Source: a virus
Strand: one strand, 5' to 3'
Length of the DNA stretch: 22,553 nt
IMG/VR virus record: IMGVR_UViG_3300046007_006030
Coordinates: 1 to 22,553 of that record
Shown here one piece after another: positions 1,709 to 10,654 of the stretch. Below the pieces are notes generated by a model, which was not told where the DNA came from, made no database searches, and saw only the letters and a list, made by a program, of their open reading frames with translations. Every line of letters starts with the position of its first letter. The first letter of the stretch is position 1. The translations under genes were made by a program, and so were the position numbers.

Positions 1709-1749
1709 CAAAGAGACCTAGAAAGTTTATTCAAAAATTTTAAAGAATT

Positions 1750-2310
1750 TTAGATAGGGTAATTTGAATCTGCTGGACTAGTACCAAAGTGTGGATAAGG
1801 ATCTATTGGAAATGGAATAGTAGTATCATCAATACCATGATTGGGCCAAGGATTAGGTATTCTAGGTATTCTTCGAATAGGTAGATGCCAACCTTTGTTT
1901 GGTCTGGAACGATCCCATTGATCACCAATACCATTTGGAGCTAAATTTTGTAGTCCTTGCCAAGTTTCCCACCAAAGATGTACCTGAGTAGGGTCACCAT
2001 TATTAACCAAAAAACTAAGCCAGAAATACCACATTTCATCTAACCAACGAAACCATTCTTCAGGATCATTACCGGTAGGTTGTGGTGGTGGTCCGCCTGG
2101 ATTTGAAGTTGGTTTTTGTGTTGGTTGTGTTGGAGATTGTGGAGATGGACTTTGCCAATGACCATCTGGTGTTTTAAATGGTTGTTCGTATCCAGGTTCG
2201 TTCTGTGGTGCAGGATTAGCATCTGATTCATTCAACATTCTTTTCATGTTGTTAATTTGCTCTTGTAACTGTTCGCACTTGTGTTTATAAAAATTGGTTA
2301 AATGATCCAT
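1750..2310 (-). CDS. tagged Pro/Trp-rich late protein, paralog A (186 aa)
   Basis: Residues 1-28 form a short amphipathic helix (MDHLTNFYKHKCEQLQEQ...) shared almost exactly with the genes at 2420-3076 and 3146-3553 and more loosely with 5137-5736. The helix ends in MLNE|SDA. Next comes a low-complexity Pro/Gln-rich linker, then a Trp-rich block containing PTGNDPEEWFRWLDEMW that is also present in the 2420 gene. The C-terminus is again Pro-rich. A T4 late box (TATAAATA) lies 5 nt before the ATG, so this is a late gene, probably a virion component. L-x-E at the helix end resembles cleavage sites of the T4 prohead protease gp21, suggesting delivery into the capsid; this is inference. No enzymatic motif is visible. 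Confidence 0.75.
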   Translation of the reverse strand: MDHLTNFYKHKCEQLQEQINNMKRMLNESDANPAPQNEPGYEQPFKTPDGHWQSPSPQSPTQPTQKPTSNPGGPPPQPTGNDPEEWFRWLDEMWYFWLSFLVNNGDPTQVHLWWETWQGLQNLAPNGIGDQWDRSRPNKGWHLPIRRIPRIPNPWPNHGIDDTTIPFPIDPYPHFGTSPADSNYPI

Positions 2311-2315
2311 GGAGT

Positions 2316-2323
2316 TATTTATA
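2316..2323 (-). promoter_or_regulatory. T4-type late promoter box, 5 nt from ATG
   Basis: Exact TATAAATA on the minus strand, followed by ACTCC and the ATG at 2310. In T4, transcription starts about 6 nt after this box, which would be the A of the start codon. Confidence 0.8.
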
Positions 2324-2328
2324 AAAAA

Positions 2329-2353
2329 ACTCTGGATCTTTAAAATCCAGAGT
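2329..2353 (-). terminator. terminator between paralogs A and B
   Basis: ACTCTGGAT and ATCCAGAGT form a perfect 9-bp stem around a 7-nt loop. On the minus strand it is followed directly by a run of T and then by the late promoter of the next gene. The same stem occurs at 3097-3121. Confidence 0.85.
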
Positions 2354-2419
2354 CTTTGTGAAAAATTAATTTTATATTATATTTTTTATCTGATAAGTCA
2401 ATACTAGTTGGGTTTTTTA

Positions 2420-3076
2420 TTACGATCCATAGTTGGGGAGTGTAGGTGGTTTTTGTCTTGGTCTCGAATAAGGTCGGTCATATGGCCATGTTGGATAGCT
2501 CTCTGGGTCATTAGGCGCAGCCCAATCCGGAAGCGGAGACATAGGTTGTGTTGGATCGCCTACTTGCGGTTTACGTGGAATTGGTATTACAGGTGTGTTG
2601 TTGGGCTTAGGGTTAAATGGAATATTTGGTGGCCCATTAGGATTTGCAGGTTGACTTTCCCAATTCCACTCACTACCACCTGGAGCTAGTTTTTGAATAT
2701 CTCTCCAAATTTTCCACCAATATCCACTATTAGTATTAGGAGAAGTCATATTATATGGATACTTGTTAATATACCATTGCCACATACGATCTAACCAATT
2801 ATTCCATTCTACGGGATCATTACCTGTAGGTGGTTGTGGTGCATCGCTAAAATCATATGGTGATGGTGGACCATGCTGATCACTTCCAGGAAATCCTGTT
2901 GGAATACCATAATTTGGACTACGTGGACCTACTAGATCCCATTCAGTAGGCATTTGTATTGGTGTCAACCCTCCATCAGGAGGAGCATTAACTTCACTTA
3001 ACATTTTTTTAATGTTGTTAATTTGCTCTTGAAGCTGTTCACACTTGTGTTTGTAAAGGTTTGTTAAATGATTCAT
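2420..3076 (-). CDS. tagged Pro/Trp-rich late protein, paralog B (218 aa)
   Basis: Closest relative of the gene at 1750-2310. It has the same N-terminal helix (MNHLTNLYKHKCEQ) ending MLSE|VNA and a Pro/Gly-rich linker. The Trp-rich block PPTGNDPVEWNNWLDRMW is at about residues 79-96, followed by a WWKIWRDIQKLAPGG segment that parallels WWETWQGLQNLAPNG in paralog A. The C-terminal third is Pro-rich and probably disordered. A late box lies 5 nt before the ATG and terminators lie on both sides, so it is a self-contained transcription unit. No known domain is recognised. Late timing and the shared tag argue for a virion-associated role. Confidence 0.75.
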   Translation of the reverse strand: MNHLTNLYKHKCEQLQEQINNIKKMLSEVNAPPDGGLTPIQMPTEWDLVGPRSPNYGIPTGFPGSDQHGPPSPYDFSDAPQPPTGNDPVEWNNWLDRMWQWYINKYPYNMTSPNTNSGYWWKIWRDIQKLAPGGSEWNWESQPANPNGPPNIPFNPKPNNTPVIPIPRKPQVGDPTQPMSPLPDWAAPNDPESYPTWPYDRPYSRPRQKPPTLPNYGS

Positions 3077-3081
3077 AAAAG

Positions 3082-3089
3082 TATTTATA
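3082..3089 (-). promoter_or_regulatory. T4-type late promoter box, 5 nt from ATG
   Basis: Exact TATAAATA on the minus strand, then CTTTT and the ATG at 3076. It directly abuts the T-run of the terminator at 3097-3121. Confidence 0.8.
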
Positions 3090-3096
3090 TAAAAAA

Positions 3097-3121
3097 ACTC
3101 TGGATTTTAAAGATCCAGAGT
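3097..3121 (-). terminator. terminator between paralogs B and C
   Basis: Perfect 9-bp stem ACTCTGGAT / ATCCAGAGT with a 7-nt loop and a T-run on the minus strand. It has the same arms and similar flanks (CTTTGTGAAAAATT on the plus strand) as the hairpin at 2329-2353, consistent with duplication of the whole gene cassette. Confidence 0.85.
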
Positions 3122-3145
3122 CTTTGTGAAAAATTTTAAATTACT

Positions 3146-3553
3146 TTAATTGGTATTAGATATTTCCCATTGTTCCCAAGATGGTGAACCGAAAGGATGT
3201 GGGTTATTGTAGTGCCAGTTTCCAGGTTGTCGAACCCATTTTTCCCATCCTTGTGATCCAATTTCATATGGACATTTTGGTGGCTCTTGACCAGCAGGAG
3301 CAGGTCTAGGTGTACCTTTTGGATTACGTGCAGGAGGTGCTGGTGTAGGACGTGGGGCTGGTGGTGCTACGTAAACAGGTGGTCTCAGTGGATATGGACT
3401 TTGGTAATGTCCATCTGGTGTTTGAAATGGTGGAGCATATCCAGGAGGATTCTGTGGTATTGCATCAGATTCACTCAACATCTTTGTAAGGTTATTGATT
3501 TGCTCTTGAAGTTGTTCGCACTTGTGTTTGTAAAGGTTAGTTAAATGATTCAT
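3146..3553 (-). CDS. tagged Pro-rich late protein, paralog C (135 aa)
   Basis: The frame stays open to 3775, but the ATG at 3553 restores the family N-terminus (MNHLTNLYKHKCEQ) and lies 5 nt after a late box, so it is used here. The helix ends MLSE|SDA. A short segment (PGYAPPFQTPDGHYQSP) matches paralog A almost word for word, followed by a strongly Pro/Ala-rich linker. The C-terminal segment has several Trp residues but lacks the PTGNDP block. It shares a palindromic promoter with the divergent gene at 3579. No known function. Confidence 0.72.
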   Translation of the reverse strand: MNHLTNLYKHKCEQLQEQINNLTKMLSESDAIPQNPPGYAPPFQTPDGHYQSPYPLRPPVYVAPPAPRPTPAPPARNPKGTPRPAPAGQEPPKCPYEIGSQGWEKWVRQPGNWHYNNPHPFGSPSWEQWEISNTN

Positions 3554-3558
3554 AAAAG

Positions 3559-3570
3559 TATTTATAAATA
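3559..3570. promoter_or_regulatory. palindromic two-way late promoter
   Basis: TATTTATAAATA is a perfect palindrome and reads as TATAAATA on both strands. On the minus strand the box is 5 nt from the ATG at 3553. On the plus strand it is 8 nt from the ATG at 3579. Confidence 0.78.
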
Positions 3571-3578
3571 TTGTACTT

Positions 3579-4322
3579 ATGAAAACCTTTAAAACTTTTC
3601 TTTTTGAAGAAATGACATCAAATAATGTGTCAATTTCGAATAGTGCTCCACAAATTCCAGATACTTCAAAAAATTTGAATTTTAATTCACCCACAGGTGT
3701 TTCAAATACTGCAATGAACACTGTTGGGAAAGTAAATACAAAAAAACCGAATAATAAACGTTCAGACGATGACAATAATGGAGATGACGAAGATTTTGAT
3801 GGATGGCTAAGAAATAACCCAATGCCAGATCCAAGTGACCCGTTATATGACTCAGATGGTGATGGAATGGTAGATCCAGATAAAAGAGAGGCATATGAGG
3901 ATGCATGGAAATCGTGGAGAGATAATCTTCTCGACTGGATGTTAAATCGTAATATGAATAACCCACCGAGATTCCCAGAAGATGATGAGCCATATTTCCC
4001 TGGAGAATATGGGGGACAGTTTGATCACTGGAATCGTGAAATAGACATTTTATCTGATGAAAGATATAGACAACCAGGAGATCCTCCATTAAACCTACCA
4101 CCAGATATGTCCAAAGAAGATTATGAAATGTGGAAAAAATTATTAAGAATTAAAGGTTCAGAAGCCAGAGACATTTTTGATTGGATCTGGAGATATTATC
4201 GAGCAGGACAACCAGGATTTCCAGGTGTTACTTCACCAATAGACCCTGATGGTTACGCTGATCCACTTTTTCCAAATTCACCATCAAGAACACCTCGAAG
4301 ACCTGGTGAATATCAGGCATAA
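3579..4322 (+). CDS. late Asp/Trp-rich protein with capsid-targeting-like N-terminus (247 aa)
   Basis: The N-terminus MKTFKTFLFEEMTS resembles the capsid targeting sequence of T4 internal head proteins (MKTYQEFIAEA), with LFE|E a plausible prohead-protease site. A Ser/Asn-rich segment follows, then an acidic stretch (residues 62-75). A Ca2+-loop-like motif DSDGDGMVDPDKRE lies at 91-104, followed by a Trp/Pro-rich body with repeated acidic Trp-containing segments (DAWKSWRDNLLDW, YEMWKKLLR, FDWIWRYY). The late box overlaps that of the divergent paralog C. No known domain covers the body. Probably a packaged or virion protein. The calcium loop is short of a full EF-hand and closer to the thrombospondin type-3 pattern. 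Confidence 0.7.
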   Translation: MKTFKTFLFEEMTSNNVSISNSAPQIPDTSKNLNFNSPTGVSNTAMNTVGKVNTKKPNNKRSDDDNNGDDEDFDGWLRNNPMPDPSDPLYDSDGDGMVDPDKREAYEDAWKSWRDNLLDWMLNRNMNNPPRFPEDDEPYFPGEYGGQFDHWNREIDILSDERYRQPGDPPLNLPPDMSKEDYEMWKKLLRIKGSEARDIFDWIWRYYRAGQPGFPGVTSPIDPDGYADPLFPNSPSRTPRRPGEYQA

Positions 4323-4352
4323 ACCTTAACTAAATAGATGTAAGGAGATACT

Positions 4353-4511
4353 ATGCTAGTAAAAATTAAAAAGTTTGTTAAGAGTGTGCCACTTATGGGT
4401 TGGGTTGTCGTTGGAGTAGTTCTTGCTGCTCTTGTTATCTTTAAGGTCTCGGAAGCCAAGGGTCATCCTGGGTATCCTAAAGAGGCTCCCGTAGTTGCTC
4501 CTGCCAAGTAA
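4353..4511 (+). CDS. small single-pass membrane protein (52 aa)
   Basis: A short gene with a good Shine-Dalgarno (AAGGAG at 4342-4347, 5 nt before the ATG). The product starts with a basic segment (MLVKIKKFVK), then one hydrophobic helix at about residues 13-31 (LMGWVVVGVVLAALVIF), then a short Pro/Ala-rich tail ending APAK. This suggests an inner-membrane peptide with a cytoplasmic N-terminus. It could be a lysis accessory or host-membrane factor, but nothing specific identifies it. It lies 30 nt after the 3579 gene and is followed by two hairpins. Confidence 0.65.
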   Translation: MLVKIKKFVKSVPLMGWVVVGVVLAALVIFKVSEAKGHPGYPKEAPVVAPAK

Positions 4512-4518
4512 TTAGGAT

Positions 4519-4585
4519 GGCTCAGTTGAGCCCTACGATTGGTTATAAGGGGTTCTGATTCATTATCTGAGTCAGAACCCCTTAT
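4519..4585 (+). terminator. tandem hairpins after the small membrane gene
   Basis: A small stem (GGCTCA / TGAGCC at 4519-4532) is followed by a perfect 14-bp stem, ATAAGGGGTTCTGA (4545-4558) with TCAGAACCCCTTAT (4572-4585), around a 13-nt loop. No U-tract follows. It may be a terminator, an mRNA-stabilising end or a structured RNA. Confidence 0.6.
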
Positions 4586-4616
4586 GTATTGTGGGAGGCT
4601 TTAGAAACGAAAAAAA

Positions 4617-4641
4617 ATCTGAATCTTTTTATGATTCAGAT
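4617..4641. terminator. bidirectional intrinsic terminator
   Basis: ATCTGAATC / GATTCAGAT form a 9-bp stem with a 7-nt T-rich loop. Seven A precede it and CTTTATT follows, so it can serve the plus-strand unit ending at 4511 and the minus-strand unit ending at 4681. Confidence 0.8.
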
Positions 4642-4680
4642 CTTTATTCAAAAATTTTAAATTTTGATTAGTTTTTAAAT

Positions 4681-5133
4681 TTAAGATTTGTTGGGTGCGT
4701 ACTGAGGCATACCCATTGGGTAATTTTGAAAATTTTCTGGATAATTTCCTTGTCTCTTACCAAATAGAAATGGATCTAAATTTGGATATTCATGCGCTAA
4801 TTGATATAAAAACAACTGCCATAAGGTCATATCGAGAGTAAAACGTCCTATATCCTCTGGTGTAAGAGACTTTACCCAAGCTATAAATCTTTTATGTAAT
4901 GCTGGAGTTGGACTATTTTCTCTAAATATTCTTTCAACTTCATCCCAATCTACGGGTACACCTGGATCATCATTATCATCATTAGGTCTAGGTGGTCCCT
5001 GCATATCTTCTGGTTTAACAAATGGATATTGGTGTTGATCAAATGCTACAGGTTGAATAAACCTAGTATCAGCAGATAAATCTGCTTCTAATAAAAAATT
5101 TATTTTATGATTTAATTTGTAGTTATGAATCAT
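4681..5133 (-). CDS. late hypothetical protein with capsid-targeting-like N-terminus (150 aa)
   Basis: The N-terminal 17 residues (MIHNYKLNHKINFLLEA) form a basic amphipathic helix ending in LLE|A, which fits the L-x-E rule of T4-type prohead protease sites. An acidic Pro/Asp linker (about 45-62) follows, then a probably folded helical part (62-120) with FIAWVKSLTPEDIGRF and LWQLFLYQLAHEYP. The last 30 residues are rich in Asn, Pro, Gln and Tyr. It follows 5137-5736 with only 3 nt between genes, so the two are probably cotranscribed from the late promoter at 5742. No known domain is recognised. Confidence 0.7.
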   Translation of the reverse strand: MIHNYKLNHKINFLLEADLSADTRFIQPVAFDQHQYPFVKPEDMQGPPRPNDDNDDPGVPVDWDEVERIFRENSPTPALHKRFIAWVKSLTPEDIGRFTLDMTLWQLFLYQLAHEYPNLDPFLFGKRQGNYPENFQNYPMGMPQYAPNKS

Positions 5134-5136
5134 TTT

Positions 5137-5736
5137 TTATACAACTGTATTTTTATTAGATGTACTTACTCCAACATTTGGTCCAGCTGTCATTGGATTA
5201 CCATCTTCATCTGTACTAACTGATGCTACGGTATTTGTTGCTTCTATAGGTTTCCAAACTTCTCCACCATTAATATAGTCACCATAGGGGGAAGTTCCAG
5301 TTTTAGAAGGAGATCTCCAAGTTCCAGATGCCTCATCCCACCATATTACACGTTGTCTTTTACCATCCATATAAAGATGATATATTCTTCCATTTACACC
5401 ATTGGTACCATTACCAACTTTTATACCTTGTGGGAATAATAATTTCCATTGAGCTAGTTCTTCTTTGGTTAATCTTTTAAAGAAATCTCTCATATAATTT
5501 GAATCTCTTAATTTATCTGGGTGAATACTCTTCATCATAGCTATTAATTCTTGAGCTGTTTTTCTGTTATATGTTGCCCTAAATACACCTCGAAATAAAT
5601 CGCCCCAACCAACATTTGTAGTTTCATCATCATAATAAGTAGAATCACCTTGAGCCAAAACAGCTTCAGTTAATTGTTCAAGTTCTTGTTGTAATTGTTC
5701 TGCACGATTTTTGTAATATTGTGTTAGGTAATCCAT
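5137..5736 (-). CDS. tagged late protein, divergent family member (199 aa)
   Basis: The N-terminus MDYLTQYYKNRAEQLQQELE is clearly related to the tag of the genes at 1750, 2420 and 3146, but the rest is unrelated. Residues 45-100 are helical and basic with charged Lys/Leu heptads (KLRDSNYMRDFFKRLTKEEL). Residues 110-150 look like beta strands with Trp and Tyr (IYHLYMDGKRQRVIWWDEAS). The C-terminus is Thr/Ser/Asn-rich. The late box is 5 nt before the ATG. It is probably a virion protein carrying a different cargo domain on the same delivery helix. No family is recognised. Confidence 0.72.
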   Translation of the reverse strand: MDYLTQYYKNRAEQLQQELEQLTEAVLAQGDSTYYDDETTNVGWGDLFRGVFRATYNRKTAQELIAMMKSIHPDKLRDSNYMRDFFKRLTKEELAQWKLLFPQGIKVGNGTNGVNGRIYHLYMDGKRQRVIWWDEASGTWRSPSKTGTSPYGDYINGGEVWKPIEATNTVASVSTDEDGNPMTAGPNVGVSTSNKNTVV

Positions 5737-5741
5737 AAAAG

Positions 5742-5753
5742 TATTTATAAATA
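5742..5753. promoter_or_regulatory. palindromic two-way late promoter
   Basis: Second copy of the palindrome TATTTATAAATA. The minus-strand box is 5 nt from the ATG at 5736; the plus-strand box is 8 nt from the ATG at 5762. The 5 nt (CTTTT) and the layout are the same as at 3559-3570. Confidence 0.78.
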
Positions 5754-5761
5754 TTAGAACT

Positions 5762-5950
5762 ATGAAATCTTTAGAAGATACGATTCGTCAATTACACCAA
5801 AAATATAAAAATTCACCAAGTCTTTTGAGTGAGCAGTATATTAAATCGAACTCCAATACTACTTTTATATCTCAACAACCTGTTAATACTAACAATGTAC
5901 GTAATGTACTTTTAGGTAACTTTAAACCATCTAAAAATACCTTTAGATAA
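5762..5950 (+). CDS. small late hypothetical protein (62 aa)
   Basis: A 62-residue, Asn/Ser-rich, basic protein. The first ~25 residues (MKSLEDTIRQLHQKYKN) form a charged helix followed by LLSE|Q, similar in style to the tagged proteins nearby. The start is set by the plus-strand arm of the palindromic late promoter, 8 nt upstream. The remainder is probably disordered. It ends just before the tandem repeat block at 5971. Possibly a small packaged protein; no family is recognised. Confidence 0.6.
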   Translation: MKSLEDTIRQLHQKYKNSPSLLSEQYIKSNSNTTFISQQPVNTNNVRNVLLGNFKPSKNTFR

Positions 5951-8248: not shown

Positions 8249-9595
8249 ATGCCAAGAAAAGCATGTTGTTGTACAACAATTCCACCAGAACTAGGAAGTT
8301 GCTGTCGTCCAATATATAATGGTTGTGTTGGCAAAGAATATACATTTACTTTTAGATTTTCTGCAAAATATCCATGTATGAATTTAAATGGAACCCCAGC
8401 AATTTATCAATGTGATAATAATTCAAGTATATCATATAATATTCCAGGAAATTTTGAAACTTTTGAAGTTACTTGTGCATATTTAATTAATTCTCCTGCA
8501 GAAATAAGAGCAGAACCAGCCTGTATTGGTCCAGGTAATTCCAATTTAACTTCTAACTGTGGTAATTGGGGATGTCAGGGTTCAGGGTTTAATCCAATGG
8601 TTCCTAGTACATGGAAATACTGTTCAAATTCTATTTTTTCATGTTTAAAATGTAATTGTTATACAAATCCTAATTATTCCTATTGTAACTTTGATGGAGA
8701 TAAATTAAAAACATCTTGTAATTGTTTTACAGGATTTATACCCTTTATTTACAATTGTACGCTTGAAGGAAATAATGTATTTCAACTTGATGGTACCAAT
8801 CCAGCACCATGTGGTGAAGATGGTTTTGGAAATATTAGACCGTTTACATTAATTCAAGAAGGAAATTCACAATTAATTGATCTTTGGAGTGCTTGTTATA
8901 GATCTTATATATTAAAAGAAAATGATTTTGGATTTTCAGATTTAGGATGTGGTTGTACATTTGATCCAGGATCAGATAATTTATTAGATTCATATACTGT
9001 ACAGTTTATACCAGATCCAAATATTCCTGAACAAAATGATATTAATTATATACCTAAAATTAAATTAGATTTAATTAAATTTAATTTTAATTGTAGTCAA
9101 GATGGTAATAGCACGTCATTCATACTTCCAGGATATAATATAAATTTATCATTGGGTATTGGTTATGACGCAGAATTTAATTGTGGTACTGTTAATAATC
9201 CTATATCAGAATATCTTACCATACCATTTCAAATTTGTGAGGATACTTTTTTTGGTGGTATTTATTATGATGGTTTATACGTAGAAGGAAATTACAACAG
9301 ATCAAGTTTTACAACAGATCCTTTTGATTTGTGTATTCCTCCCAGTACAACAAATCACATAAAAGATAATTCTGGTGGAAGATGTAACATAGAAGTATTT
9401 TATAGTGATGGCTATTTTGGTGATTCAGGTGGTCTTATAGGTAATGCTGGAATTCCTTCAAATGATTTTGGATCGGTTGTACCACAACCCAATTTACCAA
9501 CTTTTTGTAAATATAGTTTTGATCCAAGTTTACCAGACAGTTTATACTGTGATTATCTTAGATTTTCAAATAAAATTTTAGTAAGTGAGGTTTAA
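8249..9595 (+). CDS. large cysteine-rich protein of unknown function (448 aa)
   Basis: The first Shine-Dalgarno-led gene after the deaminase (AAGGA, 9 nt before the ATG). The product has about 31 cysteines, concentrated in residues 6-175: MPRKACCC at the start, then CC, CxC, CLKCNC and CNC motifs. It is also rich in Asn, Tyr, Phe, Gly and Pro. The later part alternates beta-strand-like segments and has sparser Cys. No signal peptide or membrane segment is seen. The composition suggests a structural or adhesive protein with metal sites or disulfides. The intracellular environment of assembly argues for metal clusters or late oxidation. No family is recognised. Confidence 0.72.
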   Translation: MPRKACCCTTIPPELGSCCRPIYNGCVGKEYTFTFRFSAKYPCMNLNGTPAIYQCDNNSSISYNIPGNFETFEVTCAYLINSPAEIRAEPACIGPGNSNLTSNCGNWGCQGSGFNPMVPSTWKYCSNSIFSCLKCNCYTNPNYSYCNFDGDKLKTSCNCFTGFIPFIYNCTLEGNNVFQLDGTNPAPCGEDGFGNIRPFTLIQEGNSQLIDLWSACYRSYILKENDFGFSDLGCGCTFDPGSDNLLDSYTVQFIPDPNIPEQNDINYIPKIKLDLIKFNFNCSQDGNSTSFILPGYNINLSLGIGYDAEFNCGTVNNPISEYLTIPFQICEDTFFGGIYYDGLYVEGNYNRSSFTTDPFDLCIPPSTTNHIKDNSGGRCNIEVFYSDGYFGDSGGLIGNAGIPSNDFGSVVPQPNLPTFCKYSFDPSLPDSLYCDYLRFSNKILVSEV

Positions 9596-9596
9596 T

Positions 9597-9911
9597 ATGC
9601 GTACAATTAAAGTTACATATTATGGAAATACAAATAATAAAAAAATAGCAAATTTTCAAATTAAAGAAAATGATATTTTAGAACTTATTGATACTGTAGA
9701 TTATAAAAGCCCATATACTTCAGAAAAAGCTTATATTGAACATAATAAAAATAAAGTAAATCTATCTAAAAAAGGATTTGGTGAAGTAGTAGCATCATTT
9801 ACTAAATTATTTGGATTTAAAACTTGTGCTCCGTGTAATAAAAGAAGACATTATTTAAATAAAATTACTCCATTATGGATTTCAAAGATTATTACCAAAT
9901 TTTATAAATAG
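9597..9911 (+). CDS. small basic protein with CxxC-KRR motif (104 aa)
   Basis: The ATG at 9597 is preferred to a GTG at 9585 because GTGAGG lies 6 nt upstream and the start follows the previous stop by 1 nt. Residues 1-35 look like beta strands. The C-terminal part holds FKTCAPCNKRRHYLNK, a motif I associate with small phage proteins of the form C-x-x-C-x-K/R-R-x-x-x-L-N. It may bind zinc, and the highly basic tail could bind nucleic acid. The exact function is unknown. It probably works with, or is simply cotranscribed with, the cysteine-rich gene before it. Confidence 0.68.
   Translation: MRTIKVTYYGNTNNKKIANFQIKENDILELIDTVDYKSPYTSEKAYIEHNKNKVNLSKKGFGEVVASFTKLFGFKTCAPCNKRRHYLNKITPLWISKIITKFYK
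9903..9910 (+). promoter_or_regulatory. T4-type late promoter box
   Basis: Exact TATAAATA overlapping the stop codon of the preceding gene, 7 nt before the ATG at 9918. Confidence 0.65.
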
Positions 9912-10288: not shown

Positions 10289-10654
10289 ATGAAAATTTCA
10301 GAACTAGTTTACGAAGTCCGAAAACTAGCACGCAAAGAAGAAGATCCTATCAACAAGGATCTTTTTTATCAATGTGCTAAATCATTAGAAATTCTTGGAA
10401 ATCTTGCAAAGATATCCGATCTTGCAGTTGCAGAACATAACGCAGCAGAAGAACCATCAATTGATTACGGTGGTGAACTTAAATGGAATGTAGATGATGT
10501 AACTCTATCAATGATGGATGAACATATCGATGACCTAATTCAATATGGATTTATGGATCCAATTGATCGTTGGCCCTATGGCGAGCAACCTTTTACTAAA
10601 TTTGTTGCCAAATACGCTCAACGTCATTTCATCAAAGATTCTAAAACAGAATAG
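10289..10654 (+). CDS. hypothetical acidic helical protein (121 aa)
   Basis: It follows the preceding gene by 8 nt, with AGGAG before the ATG. The protein is acidic and helical, with a central LKWNVDDVTLSMMDEHIDDL segment and a C-terminal WPYGEQPFTKFVAKYAQRHF. I recognise no family. Its last 31 nt overlap the 3' end of the minus-strand metallopeptidase gene, a tail-to-tail overlap. GC is somewhat higher than in the adjacent late genes. Confidence 0.72.
   Translation: MKISELVYEVRKLARKEEDPINKDLFYQCAKSLEILGNLAKISDLAVAEHNAAEEPSIDYGGELKWNVDDVTLSMMDEHIDDLIQYGFMDPIDRWPYGEQPFTKFVAKYAQRHFIKDSKTE

Follow-up and report, generated by a model that had tools for sequence, protein, structure and literature searches.

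A common N-terminal segment on four phage genes

The window analysed here, the whole of a 22,553-base IMG/VR virus record (IMGVR_UViG_3300046007_006030), is a fragment of a T4-like phage and encodes a gp32-like single-stranded DNA-binding protein, a tail tube protein, a head-closure protein and baseplate wedge proteins. Four of its minus-strand open reading frames (ORFs) open with a common N-terminal segment: MDHLTNFYKHKCEQLQEQINNMKRMLNES (ATG at 2310), MNHLTNLYKHKCEQLQEQINNIKKMLSEV (ATG at 3076), MNHLTNLYKHKCEQLQEQINNLTKMLSES (ATG at 3553) and MDYLTQYYKNRAEQLQQELEQLTEAVLAQ (ATG at 5736). An earlier note on this DNA had described the segment as a helix shared by four late genes with unrelated bodies, and had proposed that it is a tag for delivery into the capsid. 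A search of the window with the tag alone returned exactly these four genes (1750, 2420, 3146 and 5137) with E-values of 6e-22 to 2.5e-5, and since 147 nonredundant tagged proteins were found on viral contigs, the shared helix is not due to chance.

The T4 protease gp21 cuts after L/I-x-E; T4 virion proteins shed N-terminal propeptides of 7-65 residues, and core proteins are chopped into many fragments (PMC9026906). Gene 1 (1750..2310, minus strand) encodes a Pro/Trp-rich protein of 186 aa whose tag occupies residues 1-28 (2227-2310); the predicted cut is MLNE/SD (slash, cut site), and one more LxE is present in the body (LDE, residue 92). Gene 2 (2420..3076, minus strand) encodes a paralog of 218 aa (tag 2993-3076, predicted cut MLSE/VN) and gene 3 (3146..3553, minus strand) a protein of 135 aa (tag 3470-3553, predicted cut MLSE/SD), both with bodies free of LxE. 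The ORF listed for gene 3 opens at an upstream TTG, the true start being the ATG at 3553. Gene 4 (5137..5736, minus strand) encodes a helical and beta protein of 199 aa with a predicted cut at LTE/AV and an ortholog at 7831-8430 of contig L055 (L055:7831-8430); its structure model (predicted local distance difference test score, pLDDT, 48) was too uncertain to use. The earlier description of MLxE followed by S or V in three genes was correct, the residues being S, V and S, and in gene 4 the tag runs instead to LTE/A at residue 24 (5665-5736).

The bodies of genes 1 and 2 fall into the same BLAST family and share PTGNDPxEWxxWLDxMW and LAPxG, while GYxxPFxTPDGHxQSP is common to genes 3 and 1. 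The DNA of these three genes shows partial tandem duplication, with stretches of 159 bp (83%) and 187 bp (79%). Genes 1 to 3 are partly related paralogs, so that inside the window only gene 4 has an independent body. The claim of unrelated bodies holds only in part inside the window, and strongly across other contigs.

Spread of the tag and placement of the protease motif

Searching viral contigs with nothing but the four tags yielded 78 loci, and an iterated profile search within them gave 182 tagged frames, from which the 147 nonredundant proteins were obtained by requiring an initiator Met. The tag consensus is MxYLTNYYKNxxEQLQExxNxLExxLxE, ~28 residues at the initiator Met, and contigs carry 2-9 copies (25 contigs tested). 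The variety of bodies anticipated by the earlier note was found in many related phages: the bodies group into at least 59 BLAST families, of which 36 have a single member. A mere recent duplication of the tag is thus true for three window genes and false for the family. In one protein (L056:10001-11305), a second tag-like segment, TNYYNNLSKQLQERINYLQHILNEE, was observed near 10430, as if two tagged proteins had fused.

A profile of 44 tags found no match in T4, S-SKS1, S-SRM01, P-SSM2, HTVC008M or DSL-LC03, and tblastn of whole genes, tags and consensus tags against annotated phages gave no more than a pair of marginal matches, at E 3 and E 10. No confirmed tag was present among the ~85,000 bacterial and archaeal genomes scanned, and no description of it was found among the open-access papers listed in literature searches. 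By these searches the tag cannot be recognised in isolated phages. The major capsid protein encoded on one tag-bearing contig has cyanophages alone as its nearest isolates, at 52-54% identity, which places the tag in uncultured relatives of cyanomyoviruses.

The motif [LI]xE was present at residues 20-36 in 145 of the 147 tagged proteins, the window sites being at 28, 28, 28 and 24, and the residue that follows is A or S in 71 of the 145. Per position, the motif occurs at a frequency of 0.15 near residue 28 and of only ~0.004 past residue 36. Comparison with shuffled sequences revealed strong avoidance in the tagged bodies, with 83 [LI]xE observed against 184 expected (z -8.8) and 12 [LI]xE[ASG] against 48; no LxE at all occurs in 83 of 141 bodies. 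When one protein per body family was counted, 47 were observed against 80.9 expected, lower than all 500 shuffles. Among 345 pairs of the form x-n-y in the bodies, L.E and I.E ranked first and second for depletion, compared to ranks 328 and 125 of 395 pairs in control ORFs. In the 174 control ORFs from the same loci, 604 [LI]xE were observed against 584 expected (ratio 1.03), and no depletion was seen in the tagged bodies for [LI]xD, [LI]xK, [LI]xQ, E.[LI] or [LI]..E. An artefact of disordered, Pro-rich composition is ruled out, as the shuffles preserve composition and E.[LI], the motif read backwards, occurs more often than expected. Avoidance extends to 30 proteins of the same loci that have a T4-type start, MK[KTSN][FLY]xx[FY][LIM]xE, with 21 [LI]xE after the site against 47.7 expected. 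As a separate observation, cysteine is nearly missing from the tagged bodies of contigs L005-L083 (0.1%, compared to 1.7% in controls), yet the tag often has one (LCE).

The earlier note had also pointed to the cleavage sites of gp21, and these agree with T4. A gp21 gene (Peptidase_S77; L103:7799-8446, for example) is present on 11 of the 28 tag-bearing contigs tested (E 2e-37 to 6e-42). In the gp23 proteins encoded near these gp21 genes, [LI]xE is confined to residues 14, 42 and 55 and a single site near 260, and gp22 of this clade carries 11-14 such sites, as in T4. These patterns suggest that the cleavage rule of the clade matches that of T4 and that exposed proteins that must survive shun the motif. 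The gene between gp21 and gp22 (L103:7116-7802, L100:3015-3860 and equivalents) has one or few LxE, near the N-terminus in most contigs, with hardly any site in the body, and probably encodes another head-internal protein.

Late expression of the tagged genes, as proposed in the earlier note, is supported by TATAAATA boxes upstream. Minus-strand boxes at 2316..2323 and 3082..3089 lie 5 nt before the ATG of genes 1 and 2, respectively. Palindromic, bidirectional late boxes, TATTTATAAATA, lie on both strands at 3559..3570 and 5742..5753; their minus boxes (3559-3566 and 5742-5749) stand 5 nt before genes 3 and 4, and their plus boxes 8 nt before the genes at 3579 and 5762. Each of these TATTTATAAATA boxes is shared by two divergent late genes, and one element may fire both ways. 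Of the 95 tagged genes that have a late box (at most one mismatch), 75 carry it exactly 5 nt upstream of the ATG, and an exact box at this spacing precedes 44 of the 147 tagged genes compared to 11 of 598 controls. T4 late boxes begin at -13 (PMC2988020), which together with the 5-nt spacing places +1 on the A of the ATG. As this leaves no room for a Shine-Dalgarno site, we infer that the late mRNAs of the tagged genes are leaderless. The gp23 genes of the same phages have a box ~30 nt upstream and an AGGAG site.

The tag and the bodies appear to be separable. In one cargo family, the L008 and L064 genes agree at 52 of the 60 DNA positions directly after the LxE codon and at only 19 of the 60 before it, which puts the swap of tags at the predicted cut. 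Gene 4 and its L055 ortholog are identical in 28 tag residues and keep 81 of 168 in the body (Fisher 2e-8). L055 is syntenic with the window, and most shared neighbouring genes are 87-100% identical; the cargo genes 5137, 4681 and 3579 are 55, 46 and 69% identical to their orthologs there. The three-gene cargo block of genes 1 to 3 (1743..3552, minus strand) is not present at the syntenic place in this close relative, which bears a different tagged gene at 8965-9687. In the AlphaFold model of the commonest cargo family, the tag forms one helix over residues 2-30 and precedes a separate body. The 59 body families, the exchange at the predicted cut and this separate helix contradict the possibility, raised in the earlier note, that the helix is conserved only within a larger fold. 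A module, KRSNxFGPAIPDxKQxxEYRxAKAEL, adjoins the tag in one protein and is C-terminal in others (L036:11543-12676 and L037:11431-12522, compared with L008:7448-9187), which suggests that modules shuffle within the bodies too. There is about an even chance that late promoter, near-leaderless start, helix and protease site make up a mobile cassette that travels as a unit and acquires new bodies by joining at the cleavage codon.

A predicted capsid-targeting propeptide

The spread of the tag, the gp21 homologs and the bodies that shun the protease motif uphold, in silico, the proposal of a capsid delivery tag. It is very probable that the tag is a capsid-targeting propeptide serving both head targeting and cleavage, and our best reading is that it represents a new class, working like the T4 capsid-targeting sequence (CTS) and non-homologous to it. 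Each tagged gene would be transcribed late from its own T4-type late promoter, and the ~28-residue helix would dock the protein to the prohead core. A gp21-type prohead protease would free the body by cutting after the L/I-x-E that ends the helix and at LxE sites within the helix; the placement of the motif and its avoidance throughout the bodies argue for this cleavage. The freed body would remain in the mature head among the DNA and would probably be ejected with the genome into the next host as a fast-changing effector or anti-defence protein. Tag, promoter and cut site would make up an exchangeable cassette, available for fusion to further bodies.

Several points weigh against this interpretation. 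The window is without gp21, gp22 and gp23, the protease being seen only on related contigs. Packaging and cleavage are predictions from sequence, and injection is argued by analogy. The tagged proteins are of common ancestry, so that the junction counts are not independent. Comparison of the 44-tag profile with T4 and the five other T4-like isolates reveals no similarity of the tag to the T4 CTS, and the tagged bodies have almost no match to known families.

The closest parallels are the CTS of the T4 internal proteins IPI, IPII and IPIII and the propeptide of Alt, which are likewise N-terminal propeptides on differing late proteins (PMC9026906, PMC3012670). The likeness extends to the L/I-x-E end, a gp21-family protease in the clade, bodies poor in further sites and a repertoire that varies between relatives. 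Unlike the T4 CTS of 10-19 aa (PMC9026906), the tag is ~28 residues long, has another sequence with several internal LxE, occurs on dozens of body families in up to nine copies per contig, and has a late promoter fused 5 nt before the ATG. The giant phage SPN3US, which belongs to an unrelated phage group and is likened here by description, has ejection proteins with propeptides; there too, head proteins are cleaved by a prohead protease, and many head proteins enter the host (PMC5694885, PMC10052503).

Similarity searches gave few clues to what the bodies do. PHROGs returned nothing reliable for the proteins of the window's cluster, weak matches to PHROG 4000 and 23374 (E 0.04 and 0.01) being set aside, and neither the PDB nor viral folds offered a convincing match to the model (pLDDT 73) built for the commonest cargo family. 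PHROG matches to the tagged proteins also included the labels cytidyltransferase, peptidase and endolysin, which were seen at the level of the whole set and were set aside. DUF7178 was detected in two tagged bodies. Elsewhere this domain is part of a polyvalent-type protein exceeding 2,750 aa in Rhodobacteraceae phage LS06-2018-MD07; the same chain contains a methyltransferase and has an ART-PolyVal match too weak to pass its cut-off. Roseobacter phage CRP-738 has the domain in an 835-aa protein whose gene stands between those for portal and coat. Phage polyvalent proteins are predicted to be virion-packaged, injected conflict proteins (PMC5512222); they are single large multidomain chains, whereas here separate bodies stand under a common tag. 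T-even internal proteins are described as diverse defence proteins conserved only in their CTS (PMC3012670). By analogy with this precedent and with the polyvalent relative of the DUF7178 cargo, an injected effector or anti-defence role is favoured, and is somewhat the likelier one, for many of the bodies.

Alternatively, the tag could target the head and the bodies could do their work there, in DNA condensation or in a function of the core or in head size, instead of being injected as effectors. In favour of this, the cargo family found most widely is basic with a Gly/Lys-rich C-terminus, 60% of bodies are net positive, and T4 IPIII influences head assembly too (PMC9026906). However, the extreme turnover of the bodies, their presence or absence between close relatives and their fast divergence fit host-directed proteins better, as does the polyvalent relative of the DUF7178 cargo, and we consider a purely in-head role unlikely, if the most serious alternative. 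It is very doubtful that the tagged proteins belong to the prohead core or scaffold, like gp22, gp67 or gp68, and are degraded during maturation. Their late expression and helical N-terminus with several LxE sites are core-protein-like, but a body destined for shredding should not shun the cut motif, and these do so while gp22 of the same clade has many sites. Least probable of all is a helix that serves oligomerisation or assembly in a tail, fibre or other late protein family and has its terminal LxE incidentally. The coiled-coil-like sequence and the origin of the three window paralogs by duplication speak for this reading, but LxE is retained where its spacing to the helix shifts (...SFTRKLLNE/S in L006, ...YKKSLMLNE/D in L011), the exchange breakpoint is the LxE codon, and tagged bodies and T4-type CTS proteins alike shun the motif.

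Other candidate genes of the cluster and wider meaning

Three further genes of the cluster, missed by the earlier note, have other N-termini and follow the same single-LxE logic. The cargo gene at 3579..4322 (plus strand) starts like a T4 internal protein, MKTFKTFLFE/EM, has no later LxE and carries a DxDxDG loop in its body. It represents in the window the T4-type CTS genes (MK[KTSN]FKxFLxE) of these loci, which likewise shun LxE after the site and differ from the long tag in their short N-terminus of unrelated sequence; their presence beside the tag suggests that these phages use at least two kinds of signal. The candidate cargo gene at 4681..5133 (minus strand) has a third type of N-terminus, ...INFLLE/AD, with no later LxE, and NFLLEAD is kept in the L055 ortholog. 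A small late gene at 5762..5950 (plus strand; 62 aa; L055 ortholog 88%) has a single LxE at residue 24, SLLSE/QY, and its product is possibly a core or cargo protein, a core role being equally possible. As each of the three has a single N-terminal LxE and none after it, the cluster seems to hold seven candidate head-directed proteins, whose N-termini are of three or four kinds.

Hairpins that resemble terminators and are nearly identical (CTCTGGAT...ATCCAGAG) recur between the cargo genes in both orientations (2325-2375, 3075-3142 and 4610-4663). Inverted repeats around GTATTGTAC...GACTGCAAA, at 606-634 and 1078-1230, are located upstream of small divergent genes and are perhaps early promoters.

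Proteins injected with phage DNA work before any phage gene expression. Those of uncultured phages are unrecognisable by homology, and the N-terminal tag together with motif avoidance would make them readable from sequence, so that dozens of orphan gene families become testable as anti-defence or host-takeover candidates. The tag would also offer a second, independent capsid-targeting signal for loading foreign proteins into phage heads, and motif avoidance may generally mark which proteins of T4-like phages meet the head protease. If the cassette is real, it would give an uncultured T4-like clade an open-ended, fast-changing arsenal of head-delivered effectors, comprising tens of families without known relatives.

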